64,000 nucleotides of DNA from Amblyomma americanum (taxonomy: Eukaryota > Arthropoda > Arachnida > Ixodida > Ixodidae), in NCBI RefSeq assembly GCF_052857255.1, contig NC_135506.1:80571618-80635617 (forward strand). The letters run 5' to 3'. Both the position numbers and the translations under genes were made by a program. Under the pieces are notes generated by a model. It saw nothing but the letters and a program-made list of their open reading frames with translations, was not told the DNA's origin and did no database searches. This document shows, one piece after another, positions 4,933 to 62,335 of the stretch; positions within the stretch are counted from its first letter, which is position 1, and each line of letters begins with the position of its first letter.

Positions 4933-4964
4933 CTTGAGGATAGAAGGGCACTCTACCAACATGC

Positions 4965-13040: not shown

Positions 13041-13258
13041 CCTTTGGCATAGTGAAGCCCACTGCCGGCGGTATAGCTTGTTGGCGTGGCGGGCGCTTCG
13101 GCGTCGAAGTGGTTCTAGACAGTTCAGTCGGTGGCTGTGTCTGTCCGTCGCGCCCGTCGCTCTGCGCGATCTCTCTTCTCGCGCATATTGAGCAGCTTCA
13201 TATCAGGTGTGAGCTGCCCCGACAATTCCTCTGCTCGTTGGGTGGCTGCGACAGCGCT

Positions 13259-17450: not shown

Positions 17451-17756
17451 CCCGCCGCGCTGGCTCAGTGGATAGGGCACTCGGCTACTCATCCGGAGTC
17501 CGCGGGTTCGAACCCAACCGCGGCGGCGGCGTTTCTATGGAGGCAAAATGTTAAGGCGCCCATGTGCTGTGCGATGTCAGGACACGTTAATGATCCCCAG
17601 GTTGGCGAAATTATTCCGGAGCCTTCCACTACGGCACCTCTATCTTCCTTTCTTCTTTCACTCCCTCCTTTATTCCTTCCCCTACGGCGCGGTTCAGGTG
17701 TCCAACGATATATAAGACGGGAAGTGCGCCATTTCATCTCCCAATAAAACCAACCA
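17451..17756 (+). mobile_element. SINE, full length, P block copy 1
   Basis: Complete Ruka-like SINE: tRNA-like head with box B GGTTCGAACCC, body GATCCCCAGGTTGGCGAAAT, pyrimidine-rich stretch, and tail ending in AACCAACCAGCCAG rather than (ATT)n. The orthologous insertion is at 31855-32162. Confidence 0.85.
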
Positions 17757-18344
17757 GCCAGTTGAAGAGTCACTCTGGGACGTGGCACGACCTATAACCG
17801 TATCTTCGTTACGACGCTTCTCGAGTTGTGTGGTGCTTTCTTCTGGAGTCTCTTGAGTGCGTTCTTTTTTCCTTCCTTGGTTCTGTCGTTGTTGCGTCTT
17901 CTTTGCGCTTTCCATAACGACTATAATACAGTGACGTTGCTGTTGCCGATAGGAAGACAAGGAAAGTTCACGGGCCTGCCTACTGGCTCAAGACGCGCCA
18001 CGCTCGCTGCCGCGTGCTGAATATTCCCCGGGCCGATCCCGGAGGCAGTGCAGTACCGGGCCGGCCAGTGCCAGGGTGTTTCGCCATATTCCAAAAATAA
18101 GTTTAATATCTTGGGTCCAAGGACCCGCAGCAGATAATAAATCAGGTAATATGTCTGATGTTGCTGAGAGGAAGAAGGAAAAGGAACGTGCCCGGGCCTG
18201 CCTACTGGCTAAAGCCGAGCCACGCTCGCTGCCGCGATCAGAAAGTAGGAGGGGGTAAAGGATAGCAGAGTAAAGTGTGAAAGAAAAGACGCGCCGCGCT
18301 AATATCACCGGGGCCGATCTCCAAAAAATCAGGTATGAGGTGAA

Positions 18345-20301: not shown

Positions 20302-20597
20302 CGCCGCGGTGGCTCACTGGTTAGGGCGCTCGGCTACTGATCCGGAGTTCCCGGGTTCGAACCCGACCGCGGCGGCAGCGTTTTTATGGAGGAAAAACGC
20401 TGAGGTGCCCGTGTGCTGTGCGATGTCAGTGCACGTTAAAGATCCCCAGGTGGTCGAAATTATTCCGGAGCCCTCCACTACGGACCTATTTGTTCCTTTC
20501 TTCTTTCACTCCCTCCTTTATTCCTTCCCTTACGGCGTGGTTCAGGTGTCCAAAGATATGAGACAGATATTGCGCCATTTCTTTTCCCCAAAAACCA

Positions 20598-20630
<33 letters not shown>
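20302..20630 (+). mobile_element. SINE, full length with (ATT)n tail
   Basis: Head GCCGCGGTGGCTCACTGG, box B GGTTCGAACCC, body GTGTGCTGTGCGATGTCAGT and GATCCCCAGGTGGTCGAAAT, and tail CCAATTATTATTATT. One of the least diverged copies in the window and a good family reference. Confidence 0.9.
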
Positions 20631-21600: not shown

Positions 21601-22011
21601 ATGAGCGCTTTCTTCGGAACAGTTTCGTGAGCATTGAGCTGCATTGGAACACAGCTGAGGCAGTTATCTAGCTGTCTGGTTAACTAATACCAAATAAGTA
21701 ACTTTTAGGTAATAGTTTTCGGCTCCTTGTTGTGCTCAGAGGTTTGAAGCCTACCGTAAGCAAAATTCACATCAGTTTTTACATTTCACGAAAAAGCCCT
21801 TCTCGTCGCCGCTGCAACGACAACCATGCTGAAAGAAAGAGTGCTACCTGCGCCTGTTGTAAAAAGCGCCACCGGCCTCGAGAACAAAAATATGGGTAGC
21901 TTAGGGGCGTATGTACAGGCGTAACTATCAGACCTTGAAGAGAAGAAGGGTGTTTAGAAAGAAAGAGCCACTGAGAAAAAACTTGGGTTTCAGGAGCAGG
22001 AGGGGAAAGCT

Positions 22012-22239
22012 TTATTGTTTTCTGCAGTTCTGGGCCGTCTTTAGAGATGTTCTCATTTTCGTTGCATCCCGTGTAAATCCCTCATCCCAGCTCATAGTCA
22101 GCACGACGAAAGCCGAGCGAGCATCTGCACGTAACAAGCGATGCACAACTCTCAATGAAAAGTATTCCGTGGTCCAGACTGGCTGTAACACCAAGATTAA
22201 AATAACAAACGTAATCAACCTGAGAATGCGAGTGCGCAT
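22012..22239 (-). CDS. Possible small secreted peptide (75 residues)
   Basis: Starts MRTRILRL and has a hydrophobic run LITFVILILVLQPVW that looks like a signal peptide, followed by a basic 50-residue tail with one Cys. The TAA stop lies inside AATAAA (CAA TAA AGC on the minus strand), so a poly(A) signal overlaps the end. Copy 2 (54292-54519) differs at one residue. I recognise no family. A chance ORF remains more likely than a gene. Confidence 0.2.
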   Translation of the reverse strand: MRTRILRLITFVILILVLQPVWTTEYFSLRVVHRLLRADARSAFVVLTMSWDEGFTRDATKMRTSLKTAQNCRKQ

Positions 22240-23289
22240 TTCAGGGGGCGCGAAGTAAATCGATCTTGTACGGCGCTAACTAACGCAAATTTCAATTTCG
22301 GCTGTCATGAACGGCATAAGCGATATTTCTCGCCGCGCATCTACCTTGCAGCAAGAAAAAGCCAGCACACAGCAAGCAAGGAGCGGCCTATCATCACAGG
22401 TTTCACACCGATTGCCTTTTGCGCGCATTAGAAGCAACATAATGCGGACGGTTTGCGGGCGGCGCGGCGGTGGAGGCAATTCTACCACCGGACGGCGCCG
22501 TGGGACGGCACTCGGCGTTGTACATGCACTGCATTGCAAATAACTAAGATATTTTCAAATGAAGCTTTATTCCGCTGACCACCACGTTACTTCGTTCGTA
22601 GAACGCAGGGGCCGTTGGTTTCCGTAACCGAGAACTGTGGCAAGCTGTGTGACAACGGCGGACCGTGGTTAGACTGCCAGTATAAAACAGATATAAAACA
22701 GTGCTGTAAATGGCTGTAGCGCGGCGTGGATGCGAACTAACTGTAAAAGGGAAAAAGTTTACAAGCGGTCAGAAAATGAAATGACCAAAAGAGAAATATT
22801 AACGGAATTACGTAATCTGTGTAGGCAGATTAAAGGTATGCTGCATACCGCAAGTTTCTCTCACAGAACAACCAAACTGGAGGAAACAAGCGGCACCGGG
22901 AGAACATTGCGCTGATCCTTCCTTCACCAAAGCATGGGATGGAACTTAGCAAGCGAACAAAGCCGGACGACCGGTCGACTTCCACGGATGGCGTCACTTC
23001 CGCCAGTTCTTCCTTTTTGGCGAGCACCCCCCCCCGTTCCCCCATCCGCCCAGGTCTTCTGGAAGCCACGTGGCATTTCACCAGCCATTTTGGCGCATTG
23101 CACAGACTGAATAGAGAACAAAATTTAATTGCATGATTTATAAGGTCCTTCCTTCCCAATCAGCTTCCCTGAAGAGAACTAGAGAAGAGGACAGAAAAAA
23201 TAGAGGGAAAGTGAATACCTCCAACGCATGGTGCAAGCCTTTCAAAACGTTTGTAAAAGTTGACAAATGATTCATAGAAAATTACTTTT

Positions 23290-23582
23290 TGTGAAAGGAA
23301 ATGGCGCAGTATCTGTCTCACGTTTCGGCTGTCACCTGGACCACGCCTTATGGGAAGGGATAAGTAGGGACTAAGAGAAGAAATGAAGAAAGAGGTGTCG
23401 TAGTGGAGGACCCCAGAATAATTTCGACCGCATAGGGATATTTATCGTGCACAGATATCGCACAGCAAAAGCGCGCCTTTAAGTTTCGCCTCCATCAAAA
23501 CGCGGCCGCCACGGTCGGATTCCAACCGGGGTACTCCGGTACAGTACCCGAGTGCCCTCACCATTCAGCCGCCGCGGCTGGT
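23290..23582 (-). mobile_element. SINE, minus strand
   Basis: Reverse-strand SINE: tail GAAAGGAAATGGCGCAGTAT at the left, body CCAGAATAATTTCGACCGC and head ending CAGCCGCCGCGGC at the right. Box B is damaged (GGATTCCAACC). Same insertion in copy 2 at 55582-55866. Confidence 0.8.
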
Positions 23583-23768
23583 GCTGCTGAGTATCGGTCG
23601 GCTATTAATGCGAGAATTTTTCTTGTCCTTAGGAAGCAAAAGGATTAACGCATGCCACTGAGCAAGCGAGAAACGCGCACATGCTGACGTTCTGCGGCCG
23701 CCCTCAGTGCACTCTTGCAGGCGCTGCATTGATTAGACAAGTTGTCGGACTAGTTGGTGGTGATCCAT

Positions 23769-23876
23769 TCTTTTGTTGACAGCGCTTAAAAAACACGCAC
23801 AGTGGACACAGAAGACGACTGTGACGTCGTCTTCTATGTCTTCTGCCCGTGTTGTTTAAGCGCTGTCAACAAAAGA
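23769..23876. repeat. 108-bp imperfect palindrome
   Basis: TCTTTTGTTGACAGCGCTTA at the left end pairs with its inverse at the right end, and the pairing continues inward through the AACACG/CGTGTT step and GAAGACGAC/GTCGTCTTC around a TGTGA-like centre. Copy 2 has it at 56058-56165. It is probably a fold-back of a terminal repeat; I cannot name the parent element. Confidence 0.7.
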
Positions 23877-24182
23877 AAGGCGATTCGTGCTCCCAGTACC
23901 AGATGGCCATACCGTCTATGGTCATATTGAGCGCAACGGAGTGCATACTTCGCCGCACACTGTTCTTGCTCATTCATGTTCAATGCGGCACTATACAACA
24001 AGCTATGCGTTTTGCTTCTGAAAGAGTACACAACCAAAGCGCGCGAAGAAAGCGTGCGCTTACGGTGGCTGATTACGCAGCATAAGACGCCTGCGCCTGT
24101 GAGAGCCTTTTATGATTAGTTGCTGATTGCTGTATCTCAGTGCCTACGAGGGTATGCTTTCCACTATGCCGACAAAAACCTA

Positions 24183-24580
24183 CCGCCGCGGTGGCTCAGT
24201 GGTTAAGGCGCTCGTCTACTGAGCCGGAGTGCCCGGGTTCGAACCAGACCGCAGCTGCCGCGTTTCGTAAGGAGGCTGAGGCGAACGCGACGGCGCCCTT
24301 CGCCCGGGTTCGAACCAGACCGCAGCGGCCGCGTTTCGTATGGAGGCTGAGGCGAACGCGACGGCGCCCTTGGGCTGTGCGATGTTAGTGCACGCTAAAG
24401 AGCCCCAGGTGGTCGAAAGCATCCCGGAGCCCTTCACTACGGCACCTTTTTCTCTCTATCTTTAACTCTCACCTTCCCCCTCCCCTTACGAAACGGTTCC
24501 GTTGTCCACTGGCATTTTTGAGACAATTACGGCACCATTTTCTTCCCTCAAAAACCAAATTTGTTTGAGGCAGATACTGC
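24183..24580 (+). mobile_element. SINE with tandem duplication of its box B segment
   Basis: Head GCCGCGGTGGCTCAGTGG, then a 71-bp segment starting GCCCGGGTTCGAACCAGACC occurs twice in tandem (24231-24301 and 24302-24372), so this SINE has two B boxes. Body and pyrimidine tract follow, ending CTCAAAAACCAAAT; a second SINE tail (GCAGATACTGCGCCATTTCC) is fused at 24567-24612. The equivalent SINE at 46670 in the old paralogue has a single B box. Confidence 0.8.
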
Positions 24581-24743
24581 GCCATTTCCTTTCCCCCAAG
24601 AAACCAATTATTATTTTTTCTTTCATTCTAAACGAAAAAGGGCCGCATTTTATGCGCTTGTTTCTACAATTATTTCGCTTCCTTTCCATCGGTTGGTCCT
24701 CCATCCATGCGGCAGTGAGCGAACTGAGCTGCGGAGGACGATT

Positions 24744-24960
24744 GAGATGATGAGGTTGATAATACCAAGTTTATATCAACCAGATAAGGAGGCCGCCTAC
24801 TCCCCGTCCCCGGCACACAGGCCTGGGTGACGGGGGCTGGGACCTCCGCGGTTTGAAGCAGGCAAAGAGGCGTTGATTGCTCGCGGCTACTTCCGCCAGG
24901 CGGATGGCTTTTTGCTGTGATTCAGGTACCTTGCTCCTCAGGTTTCCCAAGCAGCACAAT
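24744..24960 (-). mobile_element. LINE-C 3' end fragment
   Basis: Minus-strand LINE-C tail and C-terminus: GATGATGAGG at the tail, then AGATAAGGAGGCCG and CCGCCAGGCGGATGGCTT, the same string as in LINE-C near 8190. The same fragment is at 57034-57250 and, with a fuller (GAT)n-type tail, at 47755-47970. Confidence 0.75.
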
Positions 24961-26492
24961 TGGCCCAACATTGGAACTGTATAGGCAAAGTTGGCCCTAC
25001 AAAGGAGAGTGATGGGACCATCCTCTTGCAATACTGGGCCGATGACCTGTGCTGCTTGGGTTCTCTGTACAGTTTATATTTTCTTTAGCAGCGGATTTAA
25101 GTCGCGGCGTCACATGTCGCGACAGAAAGTGGCAGGCGTGTGAAAATGTGACGCTGGCAACAATCTTTTCAAAATATGAATCTTGGCGAATCCATGTCAT
25201 CACCACCAGGGCCGCGCACTTACCTTTTTTCACAATTTAAGAGTTCCTTAAAGCTCAAGTCTACACTTATGGCGAGACAGTTACCGCACCTCGTCTTTCT
25301 CCATCACCTCCTCCTTACAGTATAGAAATAGGGAAAACGCTTCGCAAATAGAAATACGGTCCCACCAAATCAATACGTCGAAAACATATAAACTATGTGG
25401 TTGATTTCTATGCGAAATAAATGTAATGAACCAATGCCACAAATGTCTCTAGGGCTTAAACTTCTTAAAAGAGCGCTAAACAGTTTAAATCGGGCTGTAG
25501 AGAAATATTTGAAAAAAAGCTGGCCAGCTCATCTTGATTGCACATCCTCGCATATGCAAAAGATGGAATCTCCGCCGGATTTGCACTGACAGGCGACAGG
25601 AAAATTGTAAAAAGTTAATTATGAAAACTGTAAAATTAAATCTTATTGGAAAACAAATAAGCTACGGAATCAAATATTATCAGACAATAGCAAGCAACCG
25701 AACCTCAACGACCGAAGAGGTTTGTACACATTCGAATAAAGGCAAACTCCGAGGGGTGACCAAGAATTCTATACCCAAACTGGAGCTTTACTTGGGTGTC
25801 AATTGGTACGTATCGCGAAGAATACAATAGCCAATTTTTCACACAAAAACAGATCTAACAATCAATCACAATAAATATGCATAAGCACTGTCAACACACA
25901 AAACGTTGAAAAACGTAGAACTGAACTCTGATCAGCGTGGTCGCAAATCAATGAAGAAATTATTACAAATTAGCCAGAGGCATAAAAAAATCTGAGCATA
26001 ATCTTCGAACAGACGATGATAAAATATTTACAAGATTGTGAACCGGGTATTTTCGACGGCAATAGAAAAAGTTTCGCGTAGTGTGCGCTATCAGAGGAAT
26101 TTGAACACCAGGCGGCCGAAATTATGTCTGTGACCTCCACTGCATCGTCTTCGCCCTCACCAGTTCCGTCTCTTCCAATAACATTTCTACCATCACGCAA
26201 TGCACACTCAGCAATCGACATGAAAAAGCAAAAGCAATCGACACTATCGACATAAAAAAGCAAAAAGGACGAACGCTAGTAAACCGGGAAGTAGCTGCTC
26301 ACGCACTGCAATATACAGAATGAATAACTAGGGGCAGTAGATATGAAAAAAAATCAACAATGGCGCAAACCTCAATAACAGCAATTACACCAAATCACAT
26401 AAAAACCGCACTTAAGATACATAAGTACAATCAAACTGAAAATATATTCTGGGTGCACGGACGCTTGAAACGAGGCATGTTGTAAGTAGGCT
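24961..26492. other. Non-coding stretch downstream of the SENP-like gene
   Basis: No gene recognised. It is AT-rich and alignable to 47970-49370 in the old paralogue and 57251-58784 in copy 2, so it belongs to the ancestral segment and presumably holds the 3' UTR of the protease gene. A 64-codon ORF (25395-25589) stays open in the diverged paralogue (48302-48502), but most substitutions change the residue, so I do not call it coding. Confidence 0.5.
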
Positions 26493-27224
26493 TCACCATG
26501 AGAGGAGCCGGCGGTGTAAAATCTCGTACACAATACGGCCGCGGAAGTACGGCATGTGCTTCTCCTTGAACAAAATCGGTGCATCCCGGGTGAGACACTC
26601 AGCGTACTGACACAGGAAGACGCCGGAGTCGAAGGTGTCCTTCTGGAGGGGCACATTGGATGGGTAAAAATACCAGCCGCTCCAGTCCAGGTCGCAGTCA
26701 CGCCAGTGGCTCACCTTTTCCAGGTAGTCCGCCAAATCATCGATGATGTTGGCATGCTCATCGCGCGGACCCAGGCTGTCATAGATGACCATCTCGGGCG
26801 TGCAGAAATCCACCACGGCGAGACACCAGTGGGACGGGTCCTCGGAGTGCACGGGCACCAGTAGAATGTCGTAAGCGAAGAGGTCTTCGCCTTGCGTCCA
26901 GCGTTTCACGCCGTCAGGTCCACAGCTATGCAGCTTGGTGAAGAAAAAAGTACTGAACGCGTACACAGCCGGACCGCCTTGCCTCTTGGAGCGTTGCGCA
27001 ATCATGGCCAGGTAAAAGTTCACAATATTGTCATTAAGTCCCTTGCCTTCTCCTAGCGTGGCTATGTCATGTCGAGTGATAGCCATAGAGAAGGCCTCGA
27101 CCAGAACCTGTTCCGGTGGGCCCGGCTTCAGCGCTTCAGACACTTCTTCCTGCATGGCAGAAGTGAGTCGGCTACTATAGCTGACGTCTCCCTCGAGGTC
27201 GGCTGCGACGGTCATCGCCGCCAT
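26493..27224 (-). CDS. SENP/Ulp1-like SUMO protease, copy 1, active-site Ser
   Basis: 243 residues, uninterrupted, resembling the C-terminal catalytic domain of sentrin-specific proteases (peptidase family C48), which mature SUMO and remove it from targets. Landmarks: LNDNIVNFYL (62-71), AFSTFFFTKL (89-98), HWCLAVVDF (His132, Trp133), YDSLG (Asp149), Gln194, then DTFDSGVFLCQ. In C48 enzymes the residue before GVF is the nucleophilic Cys; here it is Ser200 (codon at 26625-26627). The other young copy has Cys. His, Asp and Gln of the active site are kept, so the fold should be intact and SUMO binding possible while hydrolysis is probably lost or very weak. There is no long regulatory N-terminus as in SENP1/2, and the ORF has no intron. 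The start is the first ATG of a Kozak-like AACATGG context, 94 nt into the predicted last exon. Confidence 0.85.
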   Translation of the reverse strand: MAAMTVAADLEGDVSYSSRLTSAMQEEVSEALKPGPPEQVLVEAFSMAITRHDIATLGEGKGLNDNIVNFYLAMIAQRSKRQGGPAVYAFSTFFFTKLHSCGPDGVKRWTQGEDLFAYDILLVPVHSEDPSHWCLAVVDFCTPEMVIYDSLGPRDEHANIIDDLADYLEKVSHWRDCDLDWSGWYFYPSNVPLQKDTFDSGVFLCQYAECLTRDAPILFKEKHMPYFRGRIVYEILHRRLLSW

Positions 27225-28480
27225 GTTTTCACTTCAGGTTTGCACAGGGGCGCTCAGGAGACAGGATCACTCTTCAAACAATCTGTTCTTGTCGACAGGT
27301 TGAAGCATCCCTCTGCAACTGAGAGGAGGCACAGAGCAGTCAGCGAACGTCACGGGGCTAGCGGCTGACTTAAACCAAAACTGCTGCTCGCTTTGAACGG
27401 TCAGCGTTCGTCTTACCTCGGAGGAGAAGACGCGCTGTTGCTTTTCGAACACCTCGTTGATGGTCAAACAGAATAGATAACTCTTCAAACTATCTGTCCC
27501 GATCAACAGGTGGAAGCGTCCCTCTGCAACTGACAGGAGACACAGGGCAGTCATGGAACGTCACGCGGCTAGCGGCTGACCTAAACCAAAACTGCTGCTC
27601 GCTTTGAACGGTCAGCGTTCGTCTTACCTCGGAGGAGAAGACGCGCTGTTGCTTTTCGAACACCTCGTTGATGGTCAAACAGAATAGATAACTCTTCAAA
27701 CTATCTGTCCCGACCAACAGGTGGAAGCGTCCCTCTGCAACTGACAGGAGACACAGGGCAGTCATGGAACGTCACGCGGCTAGCGGCTTACTTAAACCAA
27801 AACTGCTGCTCGCTTTGAACGGTCAGCGTTCGTCTTACCTCGGAGGAGAAGACGCGCTGTGGCTTTTCGAACACCTCGTTGATGGTCAAACAAAGTGGAT
27901 AACTCTTCAAACTATCTGCCCCTATCGACAGGTTGAAGCGTGCTTCTGCAACTGACAGGAGACACAGAGCAGTCAGCGAACGTCACGGGGCTAGCGGCTG
28001 ACTTAAACCAAAACTGCTGCTCGCTTTGAACGGTCAGCGTTCGTCTTACCTCGTAGGTGCCGACGGGCTGTGGCTTTCGCAGCACCTCGTTAGTGCTCAA
28101 ACAGACTGGATAACTCTTTAAACTATCTGTCCCGATCGACAGGTTGAAGCGTGCTTCTGCAACTGACAGGAGACACAGAGCAGTCAGGGAACGTCACGAG
28201 GCTAGCGGCTGACTAAAACCAAAACTGCTGCCCGCTTTGAACAGTCAGCGTTCGTCTTACCTCGTAGGTGCCGACGGGCTGTGGCTTTCGCAACACCTCG
28301 TTAGTGCTCAGACTGGATCAATCTTCAAAGAATGCGTCCTGAACGGCAGTTTGAGGCGTCCCTTTGCAACTGTCAGGAGACCCAGAGCTGTCAGCGAGGG
28401 TAACGGCGCTAGCGGACGACAAACGCAAAACTGCTGCCCGCTCTGCACGGTCAGCGTTCGTAATACCTAGGAGGTGTTGA
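27225..28480 (-). repeat. Tandem leader exon-intron array upstream of SENP-like copy 1
   Basis: Six splice-acceptor-bearing units at 211-bp spacing (the outermost 207). Each unit reads as an exon of 113 nt followed by a 98-nt intron. Donors are CCGAG/GTAAGACG-like, ending exons at 27417, 27628, 27839, 28050 and 28261; acceptors are TCTCCTGTCAG/TTGC-like, starting exons at 27318, 27529, 27740, 27951, 28162 and 28369. The outermost exon ends near 28467 with a weaker donor (GTATTA). The internal exon units I read contain no ATG; ATGs in the array fall in introns, and only the last exon gains a 13-codon upstream ORF. This suggests a 5' leader made of repeated mini-exons. Splicing is inferred from signals, not shown. 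Confidence 0.7.
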
Positions 28481-28756
28481 CAGGCTCTGGCTTTCCGAAC
28501 ACCTCGCCGATGGTCCAACAGTGGCCGACTGTTACACACGTGAAAGGCGACCCCGAGAAGGCACAACCGTCCTGAGACGCGCAAGGCGAGTGAAGCAAGT
28601 TTTGCGCACTCCTCTCAGAACCCCTCAACAAACGCTTCTGATATCGCCAAAGACCACAGTGCTGGTGTTTTTATATTTCATGGCTCAGGATTTCTTCCGG
28701 CCTGTTTGGTCGACGTCACTTCCTCCTGGTTGTTAAAAAATAAATATCGCAATATC

Positions 28757-28990
28757 GTGGCGGCCGCGTTTTGATGGAGGGGAAACGCAAAGGCGCCCGT
28801 GCGGTCTGCTATGTAAATGCCGCTAAAGTCACCAGGTGTTAGAAATTATATATTCCGGAGCCCTCCCCTACGGCCCCTATTTCTGTCTCTCTTCTCTCAG
28901 CCTCTCCTTTATCCCTTCCCTTTCGCCGCGCTTAAAGTTTCAGCCGAGGTGTGAGATACTGCCCGCTTTCCTTTCCCCAACAGCCAATTT
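28757..28990 (+). mobile_element. SINE, 5'-truncated
   Basis: Lacks the tRNA-like boxes; starts GGCGGCCGCGTTTTGATGGA and runs through TTCCGGAGCCCTCC to TTTCCTTTCCCCAACAGCC. Copy 2 at 61475-61708. Confidence 0.75.
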
Positions 28991-29187
28991 ATTCCCGCCG
29001 CCACAGATCATACAGCCTCTCCAGATTGGAAATACTTCGCGGTGGCAGCACCGCTTCTATTAGACAGCCCCGCGTTGCCACAGTACCTGCGTTTGTAAGC
29101 CGCATGTAAGAAATTGTGTTTTAAAAATGAAATTATCATAAATTGGTGTTCAAAGTTTAAATTGAAAAAAAATGAAAAGTGATTGTT

Positions 29188-29385
29188 TTTGAGGAAAGAA
29201 AATGCCGCTGTAAGTGCCTCAAAATTCTCGGTGGATACCTGAAGCGCGCCGTTATAAGGTAAAGCATAAAAAAGACGGTGAAGCGAAGAGAGAGGTGCTG
29301 TAGTGGAGGTCTCTGACATAATTTCGACCACCAGAGGATCTTTAACTTGCACTGACATTTCCCGGCACACGGCCGCCTTTACGTT
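29188..29385 (-). mobile_element. SINE fragment, minus strand
   Basis: Body and tail on the minus strand (TTTGAGGAAAGAAAATGCCG, TAATTTCGACCACCAGAGGA); the head is missing. Copy 2 near 61907-62100. Confidence 0.7.
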
Positions 29386-29563
29386 GGCAATGTTGGTGGC
29401 AAAATATAAGTGCTTGAACCGGTTTCTTGTGTTCTACAATATTTAAAAAGAGTATATATAGGCATTATTTTTATTCTAATATCTTTAAGAAATATAAAAT
29501 ACTTAAAAAGCAAGACGTATATCTTTTGTAATGTAATATGAGAATAAGTGACAGTATAATGTG
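29386..29563. other. AT-rich spacer
   Basis: AT-rich sequence without gene or repeat that I recognise, shared with copy 2 (62101-62287). Confidence 0.4.
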
Positions 29564-29588
29564 TATAAATAATAATAATAATAATAAT

Positions 29589-29619
<31 letters not shown>

Positions 29620-29925
29620 TTAATAATATTCTTTGGGGAAAGGAAATGGCGCAGTATCTGTCTCATATATCGGCGGACCCCTGAACCACGTCGTAAGAGA
29701 AGTGTTAAAGGAGAGGGTGAAAGAAGAAAGGTAGATGCGCCGTAGTGGAGGGCTCGGTAATAATTTTGACCATCTGGGGTTCTTTAACGTGCACTGACAT
29801 CGCACAGCAAACGGGCGCCTTAACGCTTTGCCTAGATAAAAACGCAGCCACAGGGGTCGAGTTCGAACCCGGGAGCACCAATCAGTAGCCGCGCGCCCTA
29901 TCCACTGAGCCATCGGGGTGGGTAG
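29564..29925 (-). mobile_element. SINE, minus strand, with (AAT)n tail
   Basis: (AAT)n of about 65 bp at the left is the tail; then GGGGAAAGGAAATGGCGCAG, body, and a head with box B complement GGTTCGAACTC-like (GAGTTCGAACCC) and CCACTGAGCCATCGGGG. Copy 2 at 62288-62625 has a shorter, purer (AAT)n. Confidence 0.85.
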
Positions 29926-30051
29926 CTAATGTGTATTTATTACACTTTTTAATGTTTGAAATATGAGAACAAGTGACAAGATAAAGCGTATATATAACAC
30001 TTTTTAATGTTTGCCGACAACCAAAAGCGATTTCAAGCCTTTTTGTCGGAC

Positions 30052-30374
30052 CCGCCGCGGTGGCTCAGTGTTTAGGCTCTCGACTACTAATCCGGAGTTC
30101 CGGGGTTCGAACCCGACCGCGGCGGTTGCGTTTTTATGGAGGAAAAACGCTAAGGCGCCCGTGTGCTGTGCGATGTCAGTGCCCGTTAAAGATCCCCAGG
30201 TGGTCGAAATTATTCCGGAGCCCTCCACTACGGCACCTCCTTCTTCCTTTCTTCTTTCACTCCCTCCCTTATCCCTTCCCTAACGGCGCGGTTCAAGTGT
30301 CTAACGATATATGAGACAGATACTGCGCCATTTACTTTCCCCAAAAAACCAATTATTATTATTATTATTATTTT
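30052..30374 (+). mobile_element. SINE, full length with (ATT)n tail
   Basis: Head GCCGCGGTGGCTCAGTGTTT, box B GGTTCGAACCC, full body, and tail CCAATTATTATTATT. Copy 2 at 62758-63076. In copy 1 box A is slightly altered (GTTTAGGCTCTCG). Confidence 0.9.
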
Positions 30375-30932
30375 TGTCGGCAGTTCAAAACGCATTTGAA
30401 ATGAAAGCTTGCGAAACGCATCGCAGCACGATGTGGCTCTTCCCTCAGTTCGCTTAATCGCTTGCATGTAAAGAATGTGCCCCCCCCCATGCGTCTACAA
30501 AGGCTGTGCAACGCTCGGGCTTTCTCTGTGTGTGTGCGTGGGGGGGGGGGGTGCTGTAGAATGCCGATTTGCTGTGGATGTACGAAGGAAGAAGCGAAAC
30601 TGCCGGAGACAATTTTTTTTCTTAAAGCGAAAGCTTTACTCGCTGTGAACTTGGGCATTTCGCTGTTTAAGCCCTCCGAGGAAGCACATCACGTCAAAAC
30701 GCGCGCCTCACATATTTCTGTGGACACTCGAACCGCGTTTTCTTCGTTCCCTCACTTCTTTATTCCTTTATTTACAACGCGGTTCGAGTGTCCACTGAGC
30801 TATGTGAGACGGCTACTATGCTTTGTGTGCTCGCCGCGCCTTCTGGCATGATGTAACACTGCGCGGCTCGCCGCCGCTGCCGTTCGGTATGACGTCACAC
30901 CGCGTTCCTCGTCGTTGCGCTCGCCTTCTCTC

Positions 30933-31058
30933 TGACCCCAGAACGCAAGTTTTGGCGGTGGAGTGGGCTGACAAAGTCGTCGAGGGCTATGTACTCTCGA
31001 CCACTTAACGCGACCTCTTGCCAAGCTCTTCCCGGCGAATAAAATGTTTTACAATCAA
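30933..31058. mobile_element. 126-bp insertion specific to duplication copy 1
   Basis: Absent from copy 2, where the flanks join as CCTCCTCTCGCTTCACC. The insert begins TGACCCCAG and ends ACAATCAA, with TCTC at 30929-30932 and 31059-31062 as a 4-bp TSD, and carries AATAAAA near its 3' side. TG...CA-like ends and a 4-bp TSD fit a very short solo LTR, but the exact ends are uncertain. It post-dates the duplication unless copy 2 lost it precisely. Confidence 0.55.
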
Positions 31059-31854
31059 TCTCGCTTCACCAGCTTCGTCGCATGCCTGTTAACATGTCGG
31101 AGGGTTGAAAAGGAGAGCTCGCGAGCTCGCGTGGTCCACAACCACAGTTGTGTCGTCTTTAATGCGACAACATAGCTAGACAACCAGACTAACCTGGACT
31201 TGCAATCAAGATTAACCAAGACTAACCATGCTGAGCCCTAGCTTTCGCTGCGTATATCCTGTCATAGCCGAGCTAAGCCACTCCCAACTTTTCTTTCGGC
31301 AATGTGGTTTAAGCTTGGAAGGAAAGGAAAGGAAATGGGCTTTGTGCCCGTACCCTTTCTGTTCCTGCATAGCCGCTGGAGCATTGCCGAGAAAAGTAGT
31401 TCAAGCGGGCCACTATTACGGCCTCTGCTATAGTGCACCCTAGAATAAACTACGCTCTATACCTCGTGAAGACATTATTCGTTTTGACGAAAATTGAGGA
31501 ACGAAAATGCGCATTTTTTTCTCGGGCGACAGCATGCTTTTTGGCATAAAATATTATTTTACAAATAAAGATACACTCAATAACGAAGGTAAGGAAGGAA
31601 TCCGCCGGGGTGGCTCATTAGGTAATGCGCTCGTGTACTGATCCGGAGCATTAATTCGTAGTTCCCGGGTTCGAAACCGACCGCAACGGTTGCGTTTCGA
31701 TGAAGGTGAAGCTCAAAATTTTGGCATTGGTTTAGCTCTGGTTAACCCTAGTTGAATTGCGAAACCTTTGTTTACTTGGCACGTCGTCTACGCAGCGTCT
31801 CATTCCGAAGCTCCTGAGCACTCAAACTGGTCTTTTACGCAGTTGAAGATTAAC

Positions 31855-32162
31855 CCGCCGCGGTCACTCAGTGGTTAGTGCTCTCGGCTACTGATCGGAA
31901 TTCCCAGGGTCGAACCCGACCGCGGCTGTTGCGTTTCTATGGAGGCAAAACGCTAAGGCGCCCGTGTGCTGTGCGATGTCAGCTCATGTTAATCTTCCCG
32001 AGGTAGTCGAAATTATACCGGAGCCCTCCACTACGGCACCTCTTTCTTCCTTTCTTCTTTCACTCCCTCCTTTGTCAGTTTCCTTACGGTGCGGTTCAGA
32101 GGTCCAACGATATATGGGACATATACTGCGCAATTTTATTTTCCATAAATCCAACCAACCAG
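31855..32162 (+). mobile_element. SINE, full length, P block copy 2
   Basis: Same insertion as 17451-17756: head GCCGCGGTCACTCAGTGG, damaged box B (GGGTCGAACCC), full body and tail ending in CCAACCAACCAGTTGAA. It shows that the P block duplicated after this SINE landed. A head-only SINE lies just upstream at 31603-31690. Confidence 0.85.
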
Positions 32163-32626
32163 TTGAACAGTCATTCCGGGACGTGGCATGACGTCTTCTA
32201 GCCGCATCTTCGTTACAACGCTTCTCGAGTTGCTCGGAGCGTTCTTCTGACGTCTCTTGAGCACGTTCTCGGTTCCTAGCTTCGTTCTGTCGTTGTTGCG
32301 TGTCTTTCGTGCTCTCCATAACGACTGCAATACACTGAAGTTGCTTTTCTGCTGGGAAGGAAAGGAAAGTGCACGGCCCGGCCTACTGGCTGAAGACTGG
32401 CCATGCTCGCTACCCCGTGCTGAAAGTAGGAGAGTTAAAGGATAGGAGAGCAAAGATAGAAAGAAAAGGCACCCGCTAATTTGCCCCGGGCCGATCCCGG
32501 ATGCAGCGAATACCGGGCAGTTCGTGCCAGGGTGCTTCAAGGGAAGCACTGCGCCATGTTCCAAAAATATGTTTAATATATTGGGTCCAAGGACCCCAGC
32601 AGATATTATTCAGTTATGAGGCGATA

Positions 32627-34719: not shown

Positions 34720-35953
34720 TCAGGTACGATTCACAGCTTTCGCGGTCATAATTTGTTTTGAACCCCGATTGGAGTACAATAGCTGTAAAGTTATCGAATG
34801 GGTGCCCAAGGCTGTTGATGTGTTTTGAAAGTGGGAGATTTGGCTGTGTCCGCCATGTGATCTGTGGTTGTTGATGCGAATTCTAAATGGTGTAACTGTC
34901 TGCCCTACGTACTGAGCTTTACAGGTGCCACATTCCAGGAGGTAGACAACATTAGCGCTGTCGCATGAAAAGTTACCTTTTATCTTAAATGAGAAGGATG
35001 ACGCTGTGCTTTTAGCACTGGTTGTTGTTTTCATCATCGGACAGAGTTTGCACCTAGTTTTATGGCATTGCGCGGATCCTCTGAAGCTACGGTTGCCGAT
35101 TGTAGACGATGTTATCATATCCCGGATGTTCCTTGCGCGCCTATACACAACACGTGGGAGATCAGGGATAACTTCTTTCATCTTTTCACTCTGTTGAAGG
35201 ATGTTGTGGTGTTTTTTAAGAATTGTGCTAACATTGAGCATTGAAGCCGAATGGGTAAGGACCAGATTGAATTGATAGTCCGGGCGTGGCTGCTTTTTGC
35301 CATTTATGAGTTCGCGCCGGCCATGCTTTGAAGCTTTCTTGACTGAATCGTCGATGACTGACAATGGGCGCCTCTGTTGTGCTAGGTCCACACGGAGTTG
35401 CTCGCAGTTTGATTCAAAGTCGCCTTCTTTAAAGCAAATCCTACGGAAACGGAGGAACTGACTGTAAGCGATGGATGTTTTACAATGGCGAGTGTGACTG
35501 CTCTGGTAGTGCAGACACTGGTGACGGTCGGTGGGTTTTCTGTAGACTGTTGTCTCAAGTTTGTTATTCGTGATGGTCACCAGGACGTCAAGAAAATTCA
35601 TTGTCCAGTATGAAGGCGACGACGAAAACGAGATGTTAGGATGAGTGCTGTTGAAGTCCGAAATAAACTTAGTGAGTTTTTCTTCACCATGTGTCCAGAC
35701 CATAAATATGTCATCGATGAATCTTATGTAAAATATTGGTTTAAAGGGAAAATTGTCCAGGAATTTCGTCTCAAGCTCAGCCATGAATATATTAGCGTAA
35801 TTTGGTTCAATTTTGGTTCCCATTGACGTTCCACTTATTTGCACGTAGTGCTGGCCATTAAACTCGAAGTTATTTAACTCAAGTATCAGTTTTAACATCT
35901 CTGCAAGTGTGCTGCCGTCAACCGGTTGTTTAGATTCTAAGCGCTCATAAGCA
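34720..35953 (-). CDS. PLE ORF, C-terminal part: RT palm, thumb and GIY-YIG endonuclease
   Basis: Open from the LINE-E insertion point to the end, without stops. RT motif B region GTSMGTKIEPNYANIFM, motif C as RFIDDIFMVW (catalytic Asp-Asp), then NFLDVLVTI and VYRKPTDRHQCLHYQSSHT. The second half has a Cys cluster CHKTRCKLCP and the GIY-YIG core VVYLLECGTCKAQYVGQT with a downstream Arg. These domains together are diagnostic of endonuclease-positive PLEs. The frame joins directly to the N-terminal part across the LINE-E insertion when one copy of the TSD is counted. Confidence 0.9.
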
Positions 35954-36253
35954 TAGACGACTGAGAGAGAGAGAGACTCTTTAATGAAAAAACAGAGAAT
36001 TTAGCCGGCGTTTCAATATCGCTGGCATGCTACTCTGCGTAGGGAGGGGAATTTGGGAGATAAAGACTGAAGGAGAGCAGCGTGAAGAGGTGGAAGGGGA
36101 AAAAAAGAAGATAAAATGCAGCCATGAAATGGGTACTAAGGATGCAGTGGCGAGTATTGATGTAGCCTATGGAATGATGGAGTGCATAGTCCGACAAATG
36201 GGCTGACGAAGTTCACTGCAAGAAGAATGCATGAAGATAACCTGCAAGTGAAT

Positions 36254-36682: not shown

Positions 36683-38050
36683 TTAAGCCATTTGGGACGC
36701 ATCAGATTTCGTGAGAAAACTTCGAATGTATCTCTGATGTTGATGGTCCTTACGGGCCGCTTCATCTGCTTTTTCATTAGCCATAATGCCACAGTGAGCA
36801 GGCACCCACTGAAATGTTATGCAGTGGCCTGCGGCAATAGCTAAATGATGGATATACCTAATGTCCAGGGAAACTGGCTGGTGATTCGTTTTCTTCAGCA
36901 GGTTGGCCAGGATCTGCATAGATGCTTTTGAATCGGTGAAGGTAACCCAACGGCCGGCGGATCGGCGCAGGATGTAAGAAACAGCTTCCTTAATGCCGTG
37001 AAGCTCAGCTGTTGTAGAGGTGGTCCTCCGCTGCAGCCGGTAAGAAAGGGCATGGCCTGTTGAGGGCACATAAAGGCCACAAGAAGAAGTTTCTTTAGTA
37101 GTTGAACCATCGGTGAAGATATGAGTGTGCTGCGTATATTCTTCGATTAAGTAGGCGAGATTAGCTCGCAGAAGTGCTGCCTGTGGCATGCGGCTCTTTG
37201 CATTCACACCTGGAACAGACTTCTTCACCTTTAGAGGAGAGAGTGTCCATGGAGGAAAGGCCAGAGGGAGTAGTTTCTGTGGCTGATTAATAGTAGGAAG
37301 GGGCAGGAGCTGCACTGCCTGGCCAAAGCTAGAGTTGCTGTGAGTTAGGTGGACACGGTGTAGGAAGTGCTTCTTCCCTTGCAGGACATGGCGGAGATGG
37401 GCACGCATAGTTTCCTGGGCGGCAATTACCTCTAGTGGGAGACATCCTGCCTCCGCTACTGTTCCTGTTGCCGAGGAACCCTTCGGGAGGCCAAGACATA
37501 TTCGCAGGCAGTTGTTCCGAGCGGCATTAAGAGTCTTATTGCTTAATGTAGATAATCTTTGAAGCACTGGTAGACAGTAGCGCAAGGTTCCTTCAACGTA
37601 GGCTTTTTCAAGCAGAAGCATTGATCGGCAGTTGCTACCCCACCTTGTTCCCGCCATGAACCTGAATACTTGCGATGCTGCAGTAATCCTCGCACGGAGG
37701 TTTTTGATCTGAGGTGACCATGACAGATTATAGTCGATTACAACACCCAAGAATCGCTGAGATCGTACATATGGCAGCGATCGTCCGCCTAGGAGCAGCG
37801 GATATCGGGTCATCGTTTTTCTTGTAAACGCCATTGCAACACTCTTTTCTGGCGAGAGACGAAGACCTCTGGAAGCCAGGTACATCGAAATGTGCAATAG
37901 TGCTCTCTGAAGACGTTGCTGGGTAATATAGCGCGAACGTGACGCGGTCCAGATGCAGATATCATCAGCATAAATTGTTATGCGGACCCCTCGCGGAAGG
38001 TGTCTTCTTATGTGAATAAGGACAATATCGAACAGGAGAGGGCTGAGCAC
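36683..38050 (-). CDS. LINE-E ORF2 part 3: RT motif C, thumb and RNase H
   Basis: 455 open residues. Starts at the end of motif B (LSPLLFDIVL), keeps the catalytic YADDICIW, and has the thumb motif RFLGVVIDYNLSW and CLGLPKGSSA. RNase H: FTDGSTTKET, TTAELHGIKEAV, TFTDSKASM and QWVPAHCGIMANEKADEAA, so all four acidic residues and the His are present. A frameshift near 36690 leads into the C-terminal zinc domain. Confidence 0.85.
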   Translation of the reverse strand: MLSPLLFDIVLIHIRRHLPRGVRITIYADDICIWTASRSRYITQQRLQRALLHISMYLASRGLRLSPEKSVAMAFTRKTMTRYPLLLGGRSLPYVRSQRFLGVVIDYNLSWSPQIKNLRARITAASQVFRFMAGTRWGSNCRSMLLLEKAYVEGTLRYCLPVLQRLSTLSNKTLNAARNNCLRICLGLPKGSSATGTVAEAGCLPLEVIAAQETMRAHLRHVLQGKKHFLHRVHLTHSNSSFGQAVQLLPLPTINQPQKLLPLAFPPWTLSPLKVKKSVPGVNAKSRMPQAALLRANLAYLIEEYTQHTHIFTDGSTTKETSSCGLYVPSTGHALSYRLQRRTTSTTAELHGIKEAVSYILRRSAGRWVTFTDSKASMQILANLLKKTNHQPVSLDIRYIHHLAIAAGHCITFQWVPAHCGIMANEKADEAARKDHQHQRYIRSFLTKSDASQMA

Positions 38051-38152
38051 CGCTCCCTGTGGTACGCCCCTCTCTACTGCGTGAAAGCGTGTTGGACCGT
38101 TTGGAGTGGTAATAAAACTTTGTCGTTCTTTTAAATAAAGCCCAATCCACTT

Positions 38153-47970: not shown

Positions 47971-49383
47971 AATTTATATTTTCTTTAGCTGCGGATTTAA
48001 GTTGTGACATCACAAGTCGTGAAAACTAATGGTAGAGGTGCAAAAGTGTGACGATGGCAAACAAGCTTTTCAAAGTATTACTCTTGGCGAATCCATTTGG
48101 TGACCACCAGGGCTGCGCACTTATCTTTCTTCACAGTTTTAGAGAGTTTCTTACAGCTCAGGTCTGCACTTATGGCGAGACAGTTTCCGCACCTCGGCCT
48201 TCTCCATCACCTCCTCATTACACTATAGTAATAGGGAAGAAGGCTAGGCAAATAAAATAACGGTCCCGCCTAATCGATAGGCTGACAATAAACTATGCCG
48301 CTTGATTCATATGCAGAATAAATGCAATGAATCAATGCCACAAATGTTTGTAATGCTTAAAAATGTCAGAATAGCGCTAACCAATTTAAATCCGGCTGCA
48401 GAAAAAGACTTGCAAAAAAGCTGGAGAGCTCATCTTGATTTCACAACCTCGCGTGTGCTAAAGATGGAATCTCGACCGGATCTGTACTGTCAGGCTACAT
48501 AAAAATTGTAAAAAATATTTAATTATGAAAACTGAAAAATGTAAAATAAATTGTTAAATAAATAAGCTACAAAATCAAATATTATCAGCCATTAGCAAGC
48601 AACTGAACCTAAACGAAAGAGGAGTTTTGTCCACATTCGAATATACGCAAACTCCTTGGAGTGAGCAAGAATTTCCGCAAAATATGTAAAGCAAATGGAG
48701 CTTTATTTGGGTGTCAATTATTACGTATTGCGAATAATAAAATAGTCAATTTTTCGCAGCAAAACAGATCCAACAATCAATCCAAATAAATTTAGATATG
48801 CACTTTCAATGCAGTAAAATTGTATGCAAAACATAGAACTGAACTCTGACAGCGCGGTCGCAAATCAATGAAGAAATTATTACAAATTAGCAAGTAGAAT
48901 ACAAAATCTTTACATAATCTTGAAACAGTCCATGATGAAATATTTGCTAGAATGAGGCTCGGATATTCACCACGGTGATGGAAAAATTTTCGCGTAGTGT
49001 GAGCTGTCTGCGGAAGTTGAACACCAGGCGGTCGAAATTATATCCGAGCCCTCCGCTGCTCCGTCTTCGCCCCCACCAGTTCCGTCTCTTCCAATAACGT
49101 TTCTACCATCAACCAATCTACATTAAACAATCGGCAGTAATAAAAACTATTTGCACACAATCGACATGAAAAACTAATTGCGAGATGAAAAAACTACAAA
49201 CACGAACGCTAGTGTGCCGACAAGCGGTTGCACAGGCCCTGAAATATACAGAATGAATACCCAGGGGCAGTAGATATGAAAAAAAATCAACAATGGTGCG
49301 AACCCCAATAAGAACAATTACACCAAATCACATATACTGGATACGCAGACGCTTGAACCGAGGCATGTTGTTACAAGTAGGCT
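47971..49383. other. Non-coding stretch downstream of the third protease copy
   Basis: AT-rich sequence alignable with 25060-26492. No gene recognised. Confidence 0.5.
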
Positions 49384-50115
49384 TCAGCATGGAAGGAGCC
49401 TGTGATGTAAAATCTCGTACACAGTAAGATTGCGGAAGTGTGGTATGTGTTTCTGCTCGAACAAAGTCTGTGCGTCCCGGGTCAGGTACTGGGCGTAGCG
49501 ACTCATAAAGACAGCCGAGTCTCTGGTGTTCTTCTGGAGCGGCACTATACGTGTGTACAAATGCGAGCCCCTCCAGTCCAGTTCACAGTCACGCAAGTGG
49601 CTCACCTCTTCCGGGTACTGCGCCAATGCGTCGATGCTTTCAGCATGCTCCTCGCGCTGGCCCAGGCTGTCGTATATGACCATCTCGGGCGTCCGGAAAT
49701 CCACCACGGCGAGCACCCAGAGAGGGGTCTTGAGAGTGCATGGGCACCAGTAGATATCTTGCCGTAAGAGAAGAGGTCGGCGCCGTGCGTCCAGCGTTTT
49801 CTGTCGCCAGGTCCACAGCGATACAGTTTGGTGAAGAAAAATGTGCTGAACGCGTATACGCGCGGACCGTCTCGCCTCTCCGAGCGTTCCGCGATCATGG
49901 CCAGGTAAAAGTTCACGATATTGTCATAAAGCCACATTGCCTTCTCTTAGCATGGCTATGTCACATCGAGTGACAGCCATAGAGAAGGCCTCGACCAGAA
50001 CCTGCTCCGGTGGGTCCCGCTTCAACACTTCAGACACTTCTTCCTGCATGGCAGAAGTGAGTCGGCTACAACGTTTGATGGCTCCCTCGATGTCGACTAC
50101 GGCGGTTATCGCCTA
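49384..50115 (-). pseudogene. SENP/Ulp1-like protease, third copy, dead
   Basis: Homologous over its length to the 243-residue protease. The start ATG near 50115 is followed at once by a TAG. Frameshifts lie near 49930 (after DIAMLREG) and around 49760. The catalytic His of HWCLAVVD is Leu (SLWVLAVVD), Asp is kept in YDSLGQ, and the nucleophile region reads NTRDSAVF, so Cys is Ser (TCG) and the next Gly is Ala. Conserved pieces DNIVNFYLAMIAERS, VYAFSTFFFTKL and VYEILHHRLL prove the origin. It is a pseudogene with at least two frameshifts, one stop and two active-site losses. Confidence 0.9.
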
Positions 50116-50345
50116 CATTTTGTCACTGCAGGTTTCCACAGGGGCGCTGAAGAGACTGGATCACTCTTCAAACAATCCGTCTTGAATGCCAGTTTGAAGC
50201 GTCCCTCTGCAACTGCCGTGAGACCCAGAGCAGTAAACGAACGTCACCGTGCTAGCGTCTGCTGCTCGCTCTTCACGGTAAGCGTTCGTCTTACCTCAGA
50301 GGTGCAGACGGGCTGTGGCTTTCCGAATACCTCGCCTATGGTCGA
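50116..50345 (-). repeat. Single leader exon-intron unit upstream of the third protease copy
   Basis: Contains one unit homologous to the 211-bp repeats of copies 1 and 2: exon end at 50295 with donor CTGAG/GTAAGACG, an intron of 82 nt (50294-50213), and acceptor TCTCACGGCAG/TTGC with the next exon from 50212. Retention of both splice signals in this diverged copy supports a functional ancestral intron, and the single unit is probably the ancestral state. Confidence 0.65.
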
Positions 50346-53104: not shown

Positions 53105-53375
53105 TTCGCTATAATATCACAATGTCACGGCGGCCGCGTTTCGATGGAGGCGAAACGCATAGGCGCCCGTGAGCCGTGCGATCTCAGTGCAGGTTAAAGA
53201 TCCCCAGGCGGTCGAAGTTATTTTGGAGCCCTCCATTACGCCCCCTCATTCTCCCTTTCTTCTCTAATTCTCTTCTTTATCCCTTCAGTTTCGGCGCGGA
53301 TGCGTTGCCGGTCCATATGCGAGACAGAAACTCCGCCATTTCCTTTCCTCCAGAACAAATTTAATTTAATTCTGC
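53105..53375 (+). mobile_element. SINE, 5'-truncated
   Basis: Starts GGCGGCCGCGTTTCGATGGA without box A or B, continues GATCCCCAGGCGGTCGAAGT, and ends at CAGAACAAATTTAATTTAATT. A LINE-F fragment begins directly after. Confidence 0.75.
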
Positions 53376-53377
53376 CA

Positions 53378-59516: not shown

Positions 59517-61200
59517 GTTTTCACTTCAGGTTTGCACAGGGGCGCTCAGGAGACAGGATCACTCTTCAAACAATCTGTTCTTGTCGACAGGTTGAAGCAT
59601 CCCTCTGCAACTGAGAGGAGGCACAGAGCAGTCAGCGAACGTCACGGGGCTAGCGGCTGACTTAAACCAAAACTGCTGCTCGCTTTGAACGGTCAGCGTT
59701 CGTCTTACCTCGGAGGAGAAGACGCGCTGTTGCTTTTCGAACACCTCGTTGATGGTCAAACAGAATAGATAACTCTTCAAACTATCTGTCCCGATCAACA
59801 GGTGCAAGCGTCCCTCTGCAACTGACAGGAGACACAGGGCAGTCATGGAACGTCACGCGGCTAGCGGCTGACCTAAACCAAAACTGCTGCTCGCTTTGAA
59901 CGGTCAGCGTTCGTCTTACCTCGGAGGAGAAGACGCGCTGTTGCTTTTCGAACACCTCGTTGATGGTCAAACAGAATAGATAACTCTTCAAACTATCTGT
60001 CCCGACCAACAGGTGGAAGCGTCCCTCTGCAACTGACAGGAGACACAGGGCAGTCATGGAACGTCACGCGGCTAGCGGCTGACCTAAACCAAAACTGCTG
60101 CTCGCTTTGAACGGTCAGCGTTCGTCTTACCTCGTAGGTGCCGACGAGCTGTGGCTTTCACGACACCTCGTTAGTGCTCAAACAGATTGGATCACTCTTC
60201 AAACAATGCGTCCTGAACGGCAGTTTGAGCCGCCCCTCTGCAACTGACAGGAGACACAGAGCAGTCAGGGAACGTCACGGGGCTAGCGGCTTACTTAAAC
60301 CAAAACTGCTGCTCGCTTTGAACGGTCAGCGTTCGTCTTACCTCGGAGGAGAAGACGCGCTGTGGCTTTTCGAACACCTCGTTGATGGTCAAACAAAATG
60401 GATAACTCTTCAAACTATCTGTCCCTATCGACAGGTTGAAGCGTGCTTCTGCAACTGACAGGAGACACAGAGCAGTCAGCGAACGTCACGGGGCTAGCGG
60501 CTGACTTAAACCAAAACTGCTGCTCGCTTTGAACGGTGAGCGTTCGTCTTACCTCGTAAGTGCCGACGGGCTGTGGCTTTCGCAACACCTCGTTAGTGCT
60601 CAAACAGATTGGATCACTCTTCAAACAGTGCGTCCTGCAGGAACGGCAGTTTGAGGCGTTCCTCTGCAACTGACAGGAGACACAGAGCAGTCAGGGAACG
60701 TCACGGGGCTAGCGGCTGACTTAAACCAAAACTGCTGCTCGCTTTGAACGGTCAGCGTTCGTCATACCTCGTAGGTGCCGACGGGCTGTGGCTTTCGCAG
60801 CACCTCGTTAGTGCTCAAACAGACTGGATAACTCTTTAAACTATCTGTCCCGATCGACAGGTTGAAGCGTGCTTCTGCAACTGACAGGAGACACAGAGCA
60901 GTCAGGGAACGTCACGAGGCTAGCGGCTGACTAAAACCAAAACTGCTGCCCGCTTTGAACAGTCAGCGTTCGTCTTACCTCGTAGGTGCCGACGGGCTGT
61001 GGCTTTTGCAACACCTCGTTAGTGCTCAGACTGGATCAATCTTCAAAGAATGCGTCCTGAACAGCAGTTTGAGGCGTCCCTTTGCAACTGTCAGGAGACC
61101 CAGAGCAGTCAGCGAGGGTAACGGCGCTAGCGGACGACAAACGCAAAACTGCTGCCCGCTCTGCACGGTCAGCGTTCGTATTACCTAGGAGGTGTTGACA
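59517..61200 (-). repeat. Tandem leader exon-intron array upstream of SENP-like copy 2
   Basis: Same 211-bp exon-intron unit as at 27225-28480, but with eight acceptors, starting exons at 59610, 59821, 60032, 60243, 60454, 60669, 60880 and 61087 (spacings 211 except 215 and 207). The outermost donor (exon end 61185) reads GTAATA, stronger than the GTATTA of copy 1. The two extra units account for about 428 bp. Units mix two sequence types (donor-side GTAGGTGCCGACGGGC or GGAGGAGAAGACGCGC on the plus strand), which points to unequal crossing-over within the array. Confidence 0.7.
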
Positions 61201-61474
61201 GGCTCTGGCTTTCCGAACACCTCGCCGATGGTCCAACAGTGGCCGACTGTTACACACGTGAAAGGCGACCCCGAGAAGGCACAACCGTCCTGAGACGCGC
61301 AAGGCGAGTGAAGCAAGTTTTGCGCACTCCTCTCAGAACCCCTCAACAAACGCTTCTGATATCGCCAAAGACCACAGTGCTGGTGTTTTTATATTTCATG
61401 GCTCAGGATTTCTTCGGCCTGTTTGGTCGACGTCACTTCTTCCTGGTTGTCAAAAAATAAATATCGCAATATCG

Positions 61475-62286: not shown

Positions 62287-62287
<1 letters not shown>

Positions 62288-62335
<48 letters not shown>

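Follow-up and report, generated by a model that had tools for sequence, protein, structure and literature searches.

A 211-bp tandem array with putative leader exons and introns upstream of SENP1-like genes in the tick Amblyomma americanum

Repeated non-coding or leader exons are in print for the SNORD116 host gene and for Epstein-Barr virus. The SNORD116 host gene carries tandemly repeated non-coding IPW-A exons (PMC4742849, PMC9369261). In Epstein-Barr virus, the W1 and W2 exons belong to the IR1 repeat, and the number of repeats is not entirely stable (PMC12451641). Moreover, a tandem duplication that crosses an exon-intron boundary reuses the parental splice signals (PMC4974935).

The locus studied here lies in a window of 64,000 nucleotides from the tick Amblyomma americanum (contig NC_135506.1 of assembly GCF_052857255.1). 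The SNORD116 host resembles it in having a tandem array of repeated non-coding exons that alternate with introns. However, the introns of the SNORD116 host hold snoRNA genes and are part of a long antisense transcript, whereas the putative tick introns of 98 nt contain no Rfam family at its gathering score and the array leads a protein-coding frame. An Rfam scan of positions 26000-29000 with matches up to E 5 found no intronic small RNA of any family at its gathering score; the sole match (28278-28332, 18.5 bits versus a gathering score of 38) was located within a putative exon, not an intron. A SNORD116-like host of intronic snoRNAs was rejected, since no snoRNA was detected by Rfam in the putative introns. 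The W exons of Epstein-Barr virus are likewise repeated and are spliced along a tandem array that precedes further reading frames, but they are viral, each repeat provides a W1-W2 pair plus the promoter Wp, and the exons encode EBNA-LP. The viral and the tick array would be unrelated systems that work alike. In the duplication case of PMC4974935 one duplication gave one new intron, whereas in the tick an existing intron appears to have been copied whole, many times. No description of a tick SENP leader array was found in the literature among the matches listed, judged by titles and the starts of abstracts. The statement of the initial annotation that no described case was known in this family should be narrowed, repeated non-coding and leader exons as such being published. 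The tick locus would be new in its short units, in belonging to a protein-coding cellular gene and in having a single-intron relative nearby.

Two arrays and a single-unit copy

Tandem Repeats Finder reported 6.0 copies of the 211-bp unit with 88% matches in copy A and 8.0 copies with 86% matches in copy B (Table 1). Both arrays are on the minus strand, and each directly precedes a SENP1-like reading frame that has no interruption and starts at 27224 in A and 59516 in B. The repeat array that had been annotated upstream of a SUMO-protease gene is thus present, and a second one accompanies it. The gene strand holds 15 units, eight in B, six in A and one in the diverged copy C. Within A the units were 76 to 98% identical in pairwise comparison and the putative internal exons of A and B measured 109, 113 or 117 nt, so that "identical" leader exons, as first described, is not an accurate term. 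Units A6, B8 and C were 75-83% identical to the internal units. A coding array was rejected, since no stop-to-stop frame of at least 120 aa overlapped array A or B.

Copies A and B are contained in blocks that repeat head to tail (21620-31421 and 53901-64000, ∼32.3 kb apart), block B being cut by the window end. The flanks differed by ∼1.1-1.2%, with 60 differences in 5643 aligned positions on the gene side and 33 in 2751 on the promoter side. The blocks either arose by segmental duplication in tandem or are two haplotypes that the assembly has joined. The A and B leaders differed by 10 mismatches over 1476 aligned bases, and their alignment had exactly two gaps, of 215 and 211 nt, both corresponding to sequence absent from A. 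Because both gaps are in register with the repeat, every exon and intron is left intact. The arrays have the tandem units and the whole-unit change in copy number (6 versus 8, two whole-unit gaps) of a minisatellite or VNTR. The two extra B segments were at most 93-94% like any other unit, compared with ∼99% between the aligned A and B leaders; they therefore seem older than the A/B split and lost from A. On this sequence comparison, A probably lost two units rather than B having gained them; a gain in B from an array outside the window is a possible alternative. Recent expansion was rejected as an explanation, since the two whole units missing in A are not recent copies of other units and loss in A fits better. 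The array had been called expanding, a description not supported by this one comparison, in which A equals B minus two whole units.

In the alignment of copy C, the first exon of A was found on the far side and the last exon of A on the near side, with one unit and its intron between them. Read by eye, the repeat boundary in A and B falls inside the putative exon and joins a piece like the 5′ end of C exon 2 to a piece like the 3′ end of C exon 1. Copy C could represent the ancestral single-intron state or could have lost an array; both are compatible with the data.

Table 1. Positions of the putative leader features of copy A and of the related features in the window
Feature	Position	Strand	Remarks
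Copy A reading frame, 243 aa, SENP1-like	26496..27224	-	codon 200 = Ser
Putative last leader exon, 94 nt	27225..27318	-	upstream ATG 27308-27306, 13-codon uORF
Copy A array	27264..28521	-	6.0 x 211 bp, Tandem Repeats Finder
Putative intron A1, 98 nt	27319..27416	-	
Putative internal exon, 113 nt	27417..27529	-	between introns A2 and A1
Putative intron A2, 98 nt	27530..27627	-	with ATG
Putative internal exon, 113 nt	27628..27740	-	
Putative intron A3, 98 nt	27741..27838	-	with ATG
Putative internal exon, 113 nt	27839..27951	-	
Putative intron A4, 98 nt	27952..28049	-	
Putative internal exon, 113 nt	28050..28162	-	
Putative intron A5, 98 nt	28163..28260	-	
Putative internal exon, 109 nt	28261..28369	-	
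Putative intron A6, 97 nt	28370..28466	-	weak donor TAG/GTATTA (-1.94 bits)
Putative first exon, without ATG	28467..28640	-	upstream end presumed ∼30 nt below TATA-like site
TATAAAA	28669..28675	-	common to copy B (61393), different in C; putative promoter role
Copy C, diverged pseudogene	49370..50130	-	ATG then TAG, frameshifting gaps
Copy C single putative intron, 82 nt	50213..50294	-	
Copy B reading frame, 243 aa	58788..59516	-	catalytic Cys present
Copy B array, 8.0 x 211 bp	59556..61239	-	holds both segments absent from A
B segments without counterpart in A	60559-60773 and 60081-60291		as aligned; exact placement within units arbitrary

Splice signals and variation of the units

A GT at the donor and CAG/T at the acceptor (the slash marks the putative junction) were found in 15 of 15 units of A, B and C, at a distance of 82-98 nt. 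The donor 9-mer GAG/GTAAGA was exact in 12 units, the exceptions being A6 (TAG/GTATTA), B8 (TAG/GTAATA) and B6 (GAG/GTATGA). Each repeat had been divided into a 113-nt exon and a 98-nt intron, and this division was reproduced for nine of the 12 putative internal exons and 12 of the 15 putative introns, but two of the remaining exons measured 109 nt and one 117 nt, and the remaining introns measured 97 nt (two) and 82 nt (copy C). Human splice-site weight matrices, not derived from a tool, served to score the sites in the tick DNA. The common donor reached 5.92 bits, which was matched or beaten at 32 of 7068 GT dinucleotides on both strands of the whole window, 12 of these 32 being array units. 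The best antisense donor of the unit scored 1.13 bits. For the common acceptor a score of 2.78 bits was determined, with 311 of 8064 AG dinucleotides as good, and another AG, 6 nt into the exon, scores slightly higher. When one unit was dinucleotide-shuffled 5000 times, an equally good donor occurred in 212 of the shuffles and an equally good acceptor in 2614; both together, at 60-180 nt spacing, occurred in 75. The donor of the unit is unusual and the acceptor is ordinary. The initial annotation had assigned each repeat a strong donor and a pyrimidine-rich acceptor; the donor stands in 12 of 15 units and CAG/T in all, but the acceptor is no better than chance. The rarity of the pair in the shuffles favours a real intron, short of proof, and on sequence grounds we consider splicing of the array plausible, with a somewhat better than even chance.

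If transcription starts upstream, the donor of the distal unit is the donor of the first exon, and it is weak in both arrays: the A6 donor in Table 1 was equaled or exceeded at 1464 of 7068 GT dinucleotides, and B8 had a modest score of 1.04 bits, with 398 of 7068 equal or better. The third copy, said to keep both signals in one unit, does retain GT and CAG, but its acceptor region scored a poor -1.77 bits. Mean divergence between C and the arrays was 0.048 in the donor 9-mer, 0 in the acceptor 4-mer and 0.345 in the pyrimidine tract, compared with 0.184 in the putative intron and 0.20-0.23 in the exons. In the one unit measured, G+C was higher in the putative intron (0.56) than in the exon (0.49).

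No ATG was present in any of the 12 putative internal exons, whereas five of the 14 array introns contained one. The reported start codon contrast between exons and introns therefore holds for the internal exons, but nine of the 14 introns are also free of ATG, the last exon of A and of B has an upstream ATG opening a 13-codon uORF, and the absence of ATG from one exon (A4) had a P of 0.37 in shuffles. ATG depletion was accordingly rejected as a mark of spliced exons, as it does not discriminate. With introns included, the whole leader of A contained 3 ATG versus 7.8 expected in shuffles (P 0.026) and that of B 4 versus 10.5 (P 0.005), the repeats not being independent. The uORF (27308-27267 on the minus strand, stop included) is identical in A and B, and its ATG is absent from C. 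The leader looks untranslated, as had been proposed: an in-frame stop is the fourth codon before the ATG in copies A and B, and exon lengths differ by 4 nt. One relative, P0008, has a frame that continues upstream of the ATG. When its N-terminal extension was compared with the last exon, 14 (A) and 21 (C) of 500 shuffles were as good; with the spliced exon added, the numbers were 49 and 99, and with the unspliced upstream sequence 102 and 79. Since the shuffles do not separate the spliced and unspliced models, P0008 was rejected as support for a spliced leader.

Among the 12 internal units, 44 of 112 exon columns were variable versus 13 of 98 columns in the putative introns; the printed Fisher p of 0.0000 overstates the significance because the units are related. 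The introns were likewise less variable than the exons in the pairs A5-A2 and B4-B3 (p 0.015 and 0.0001), and no difference was found for A1-A6, A1-C and A6-C (p 0.61, 0.86 and 0.19). Introns that are more uniform than exons are the reverse of what is expected for protected exons. The simplest reading of this uniformity is that recombination homogenised the core of the unit, which is preferred because the units A6, B8 and C vary freely; the core may alternatively be regulatory. RNA folding of the 12 internal exons gave z-scores from +0.08 to -2.06, 10 of them below zero. Four internal exons of one sequence type have a long hairpin in common and the others fold differently, hence no RNA structure common to all 12 internal exons was found.

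The SENP1-like family

All three copies matched Peptidase_C48 (PF02902), with E values of 1.3e-27 for A, 5.5e-29 for B and 4.6e-07 for a fragment of C. The best solved relatives of copy B were SENP1 structures (E 9.7e-64), in agreement with the original assignment to the SUMO-protease family. In copy B, HW, YDS and DCG align with SENP1; we take these to be the positions of the catalytic His, Asp and Cys. The 243-aa tick frame resembles SENP1 and SENP2 (Ulp1 family C48) in being almost all catalytic domain, but the long N-terminal region of SENP1 and SENP2 is absent from it. Named homologues from ticks other than Amblyomma measured 353-454 aa in five of six cases, the sixth, P0044, having 204 aa. 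Nine of the 16 related proteins found are from Amblyomma americanum, and the closest of them, P0001, shares 99% identity with B. No relatives in prokaryote and viral contigs were confirmed in searches from which records near the window may be excluded.

Over a 769-nt stretch made up of the reading frame and the adjoining end of the leader, which was chosen after seeing the data, A and B showed 2 differences versus 9.15 predicted from the flanks (P 0.0055). The stretch is thus constrained or converted. One of the two differences is synonymous, and the other is TGC (B, Cys) versus TCC (A, Ser). The latter, at codon 200 (26625-26627 in A), replaces the catalytic Cys by Ser and is the only amino acid difference between A and B. 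Judged from its sequence, copy A is a family member by descent and probably not an active cysteine protease. Between B and C, dN was 0.186 and dS 0.293 (ratio 0.63) over 238 of 243 codons, one C stop codon and four codons at gaps being left out. The catalytic Cys is replaced in four (P0003, P0004, P0007 and P0012) of the nine Amblyomma americanum proteins (P0001-P0007, P0009 and P0012), and P0003 and P0004 are full length. Loss of the catalytic Cys in several tick SENP members raises the question of whether catalytically dead SUMO proteases are retained.

Possible origin of the arrays

The reading that we favour, at barely more than an even chance, is a tandem duplication across one ancestral 5′-leader intron that gave rise to a chain-spliced leader. 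A young, tandemly duplicated tick SENP1-like family would originally have had a single short 5′ leader intron, as copy C still shows. A segment from ∼55 nt before the donor to ∼57 nt past the acceptor would have been duplicated in tandem and multiplied to at least eight units, and because such a segment spans the whole intron, donor and acceptor would be kept in each unit. At each junction the 5′ portion of the former exon 2 would be joined to the 3′ portion of the former exon 1, and an additional internal exon without coding function would result. Splicing would then turn the transcripts into a series of ∼113-nt leader exons with the start codon in the last one. Recombination by whole units would alter the exon number and leave the splice sites unbroken, and A probably lost its two units in this way. 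We infer that the ancestral intron was real and that the array is transcribed and spliced. The array is expected to be close to neutral, a passenger that would add ∼113 nt to the 5′ UTR for each unit, and exon skipping would be likely. It had been suggested that the number of leader exons could tune translation or splicing of the protease. No evidence for such a role was found, and a spliced, copy-number-variable chain that changes length by in-register recombination with all splice sites preserved, and in which exon number and uORF set the amount of active (or, for copy A, dead) SENP1-like protein is improbable.

The main competing explanation of the unit structure, which we regard as rather unlikely, is that the array is nothing but a minisatellite, located in the upstream flank or in a 5′ leader that is not spliced, and is either carried as unspliced UTR or untranscribed, with sites derived from one ancestral chance match or a dead intron. 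The weak distal donor, the poor acceptor of C, the ordinary common acceptor and the higher G+C of the measured intron compared with its exon would all be accounted for. Nor would upstream starts be an obstacle, since the whole leader is poor in ATG and would have few of them even if unspliced, and most array introns lack ATG altogether. However, an ordered donor-acceptor pair of this quality is rare in shuffles, and the donor 9-mer is kept in C despite a difference of ∼20% in intron and exons. Some LINE elements carry tandem monomers at their 5′ end, a precedent for promoter-monomer arrays. In the same way, each unit could be a promoter or enhancer monomer that has the putative intron as its conserved core, and transcription would start within the array or below it. 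The position directly upstream of the start codon would suit this, the weak distal donor would be irrelevant, and the variable columns per base in the putative introns of internal units amount to about one-third of those in the exons. The core is variable in A6, B8 and C, so homogenisation by recombination explains the uniformity equally well, and in both A and B the TATA-like site precedes the array; monomers of this kind are quite unlikely.

A further possibility, doubtful but compatible with the other readings, is that the assembler put two alleles of one locus, A and B, one behind the other, 6 versus 8 units then being allelic length variation in one tick. The low flank divergence, the sharp head-to-tail junction at 21620/53901 and the cutting of the second block by the window end are in line with this, but a true head-to-tail duplication would look alike, and relatives seem to form clusters elsewhere (V5799_012745 and V5799_012746, both listed with contigs of length 290231). 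The allele reading would leave the anatomy of the array unchanged. If the array is spliced as in the favoured duplication scheme, it would be a natural and clear example of how a tandem duplication spanning one intron produces new non-coding exons, with a relative that has a single intron adjacent to it, and leader exon number could change in whole steps without harm to splicing. If it is unspliced, it would be an ordinary minisatellite and a caution against taking repeats for exons.

Other elements were recorded elsewhere in the window. Retroelement frames (endonuclease, reverse-transcriptase, RNase H) are located at 3391-4404, 4944-6680, 11988-13202, 34723-36000 and 36686-38152, of which 34723-36000 matched RVT_1 only below the Pfam cut-off (24.4 versus 29.6 bits). 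A 298-nt interspersed repeat, family D7, occurs in six copies (17476-17773, 20325-20622, 30075-30372, 31878-32175, 53083-53380 and 62783-63080) and is presumably a tRNA-derived SINE of ticks.
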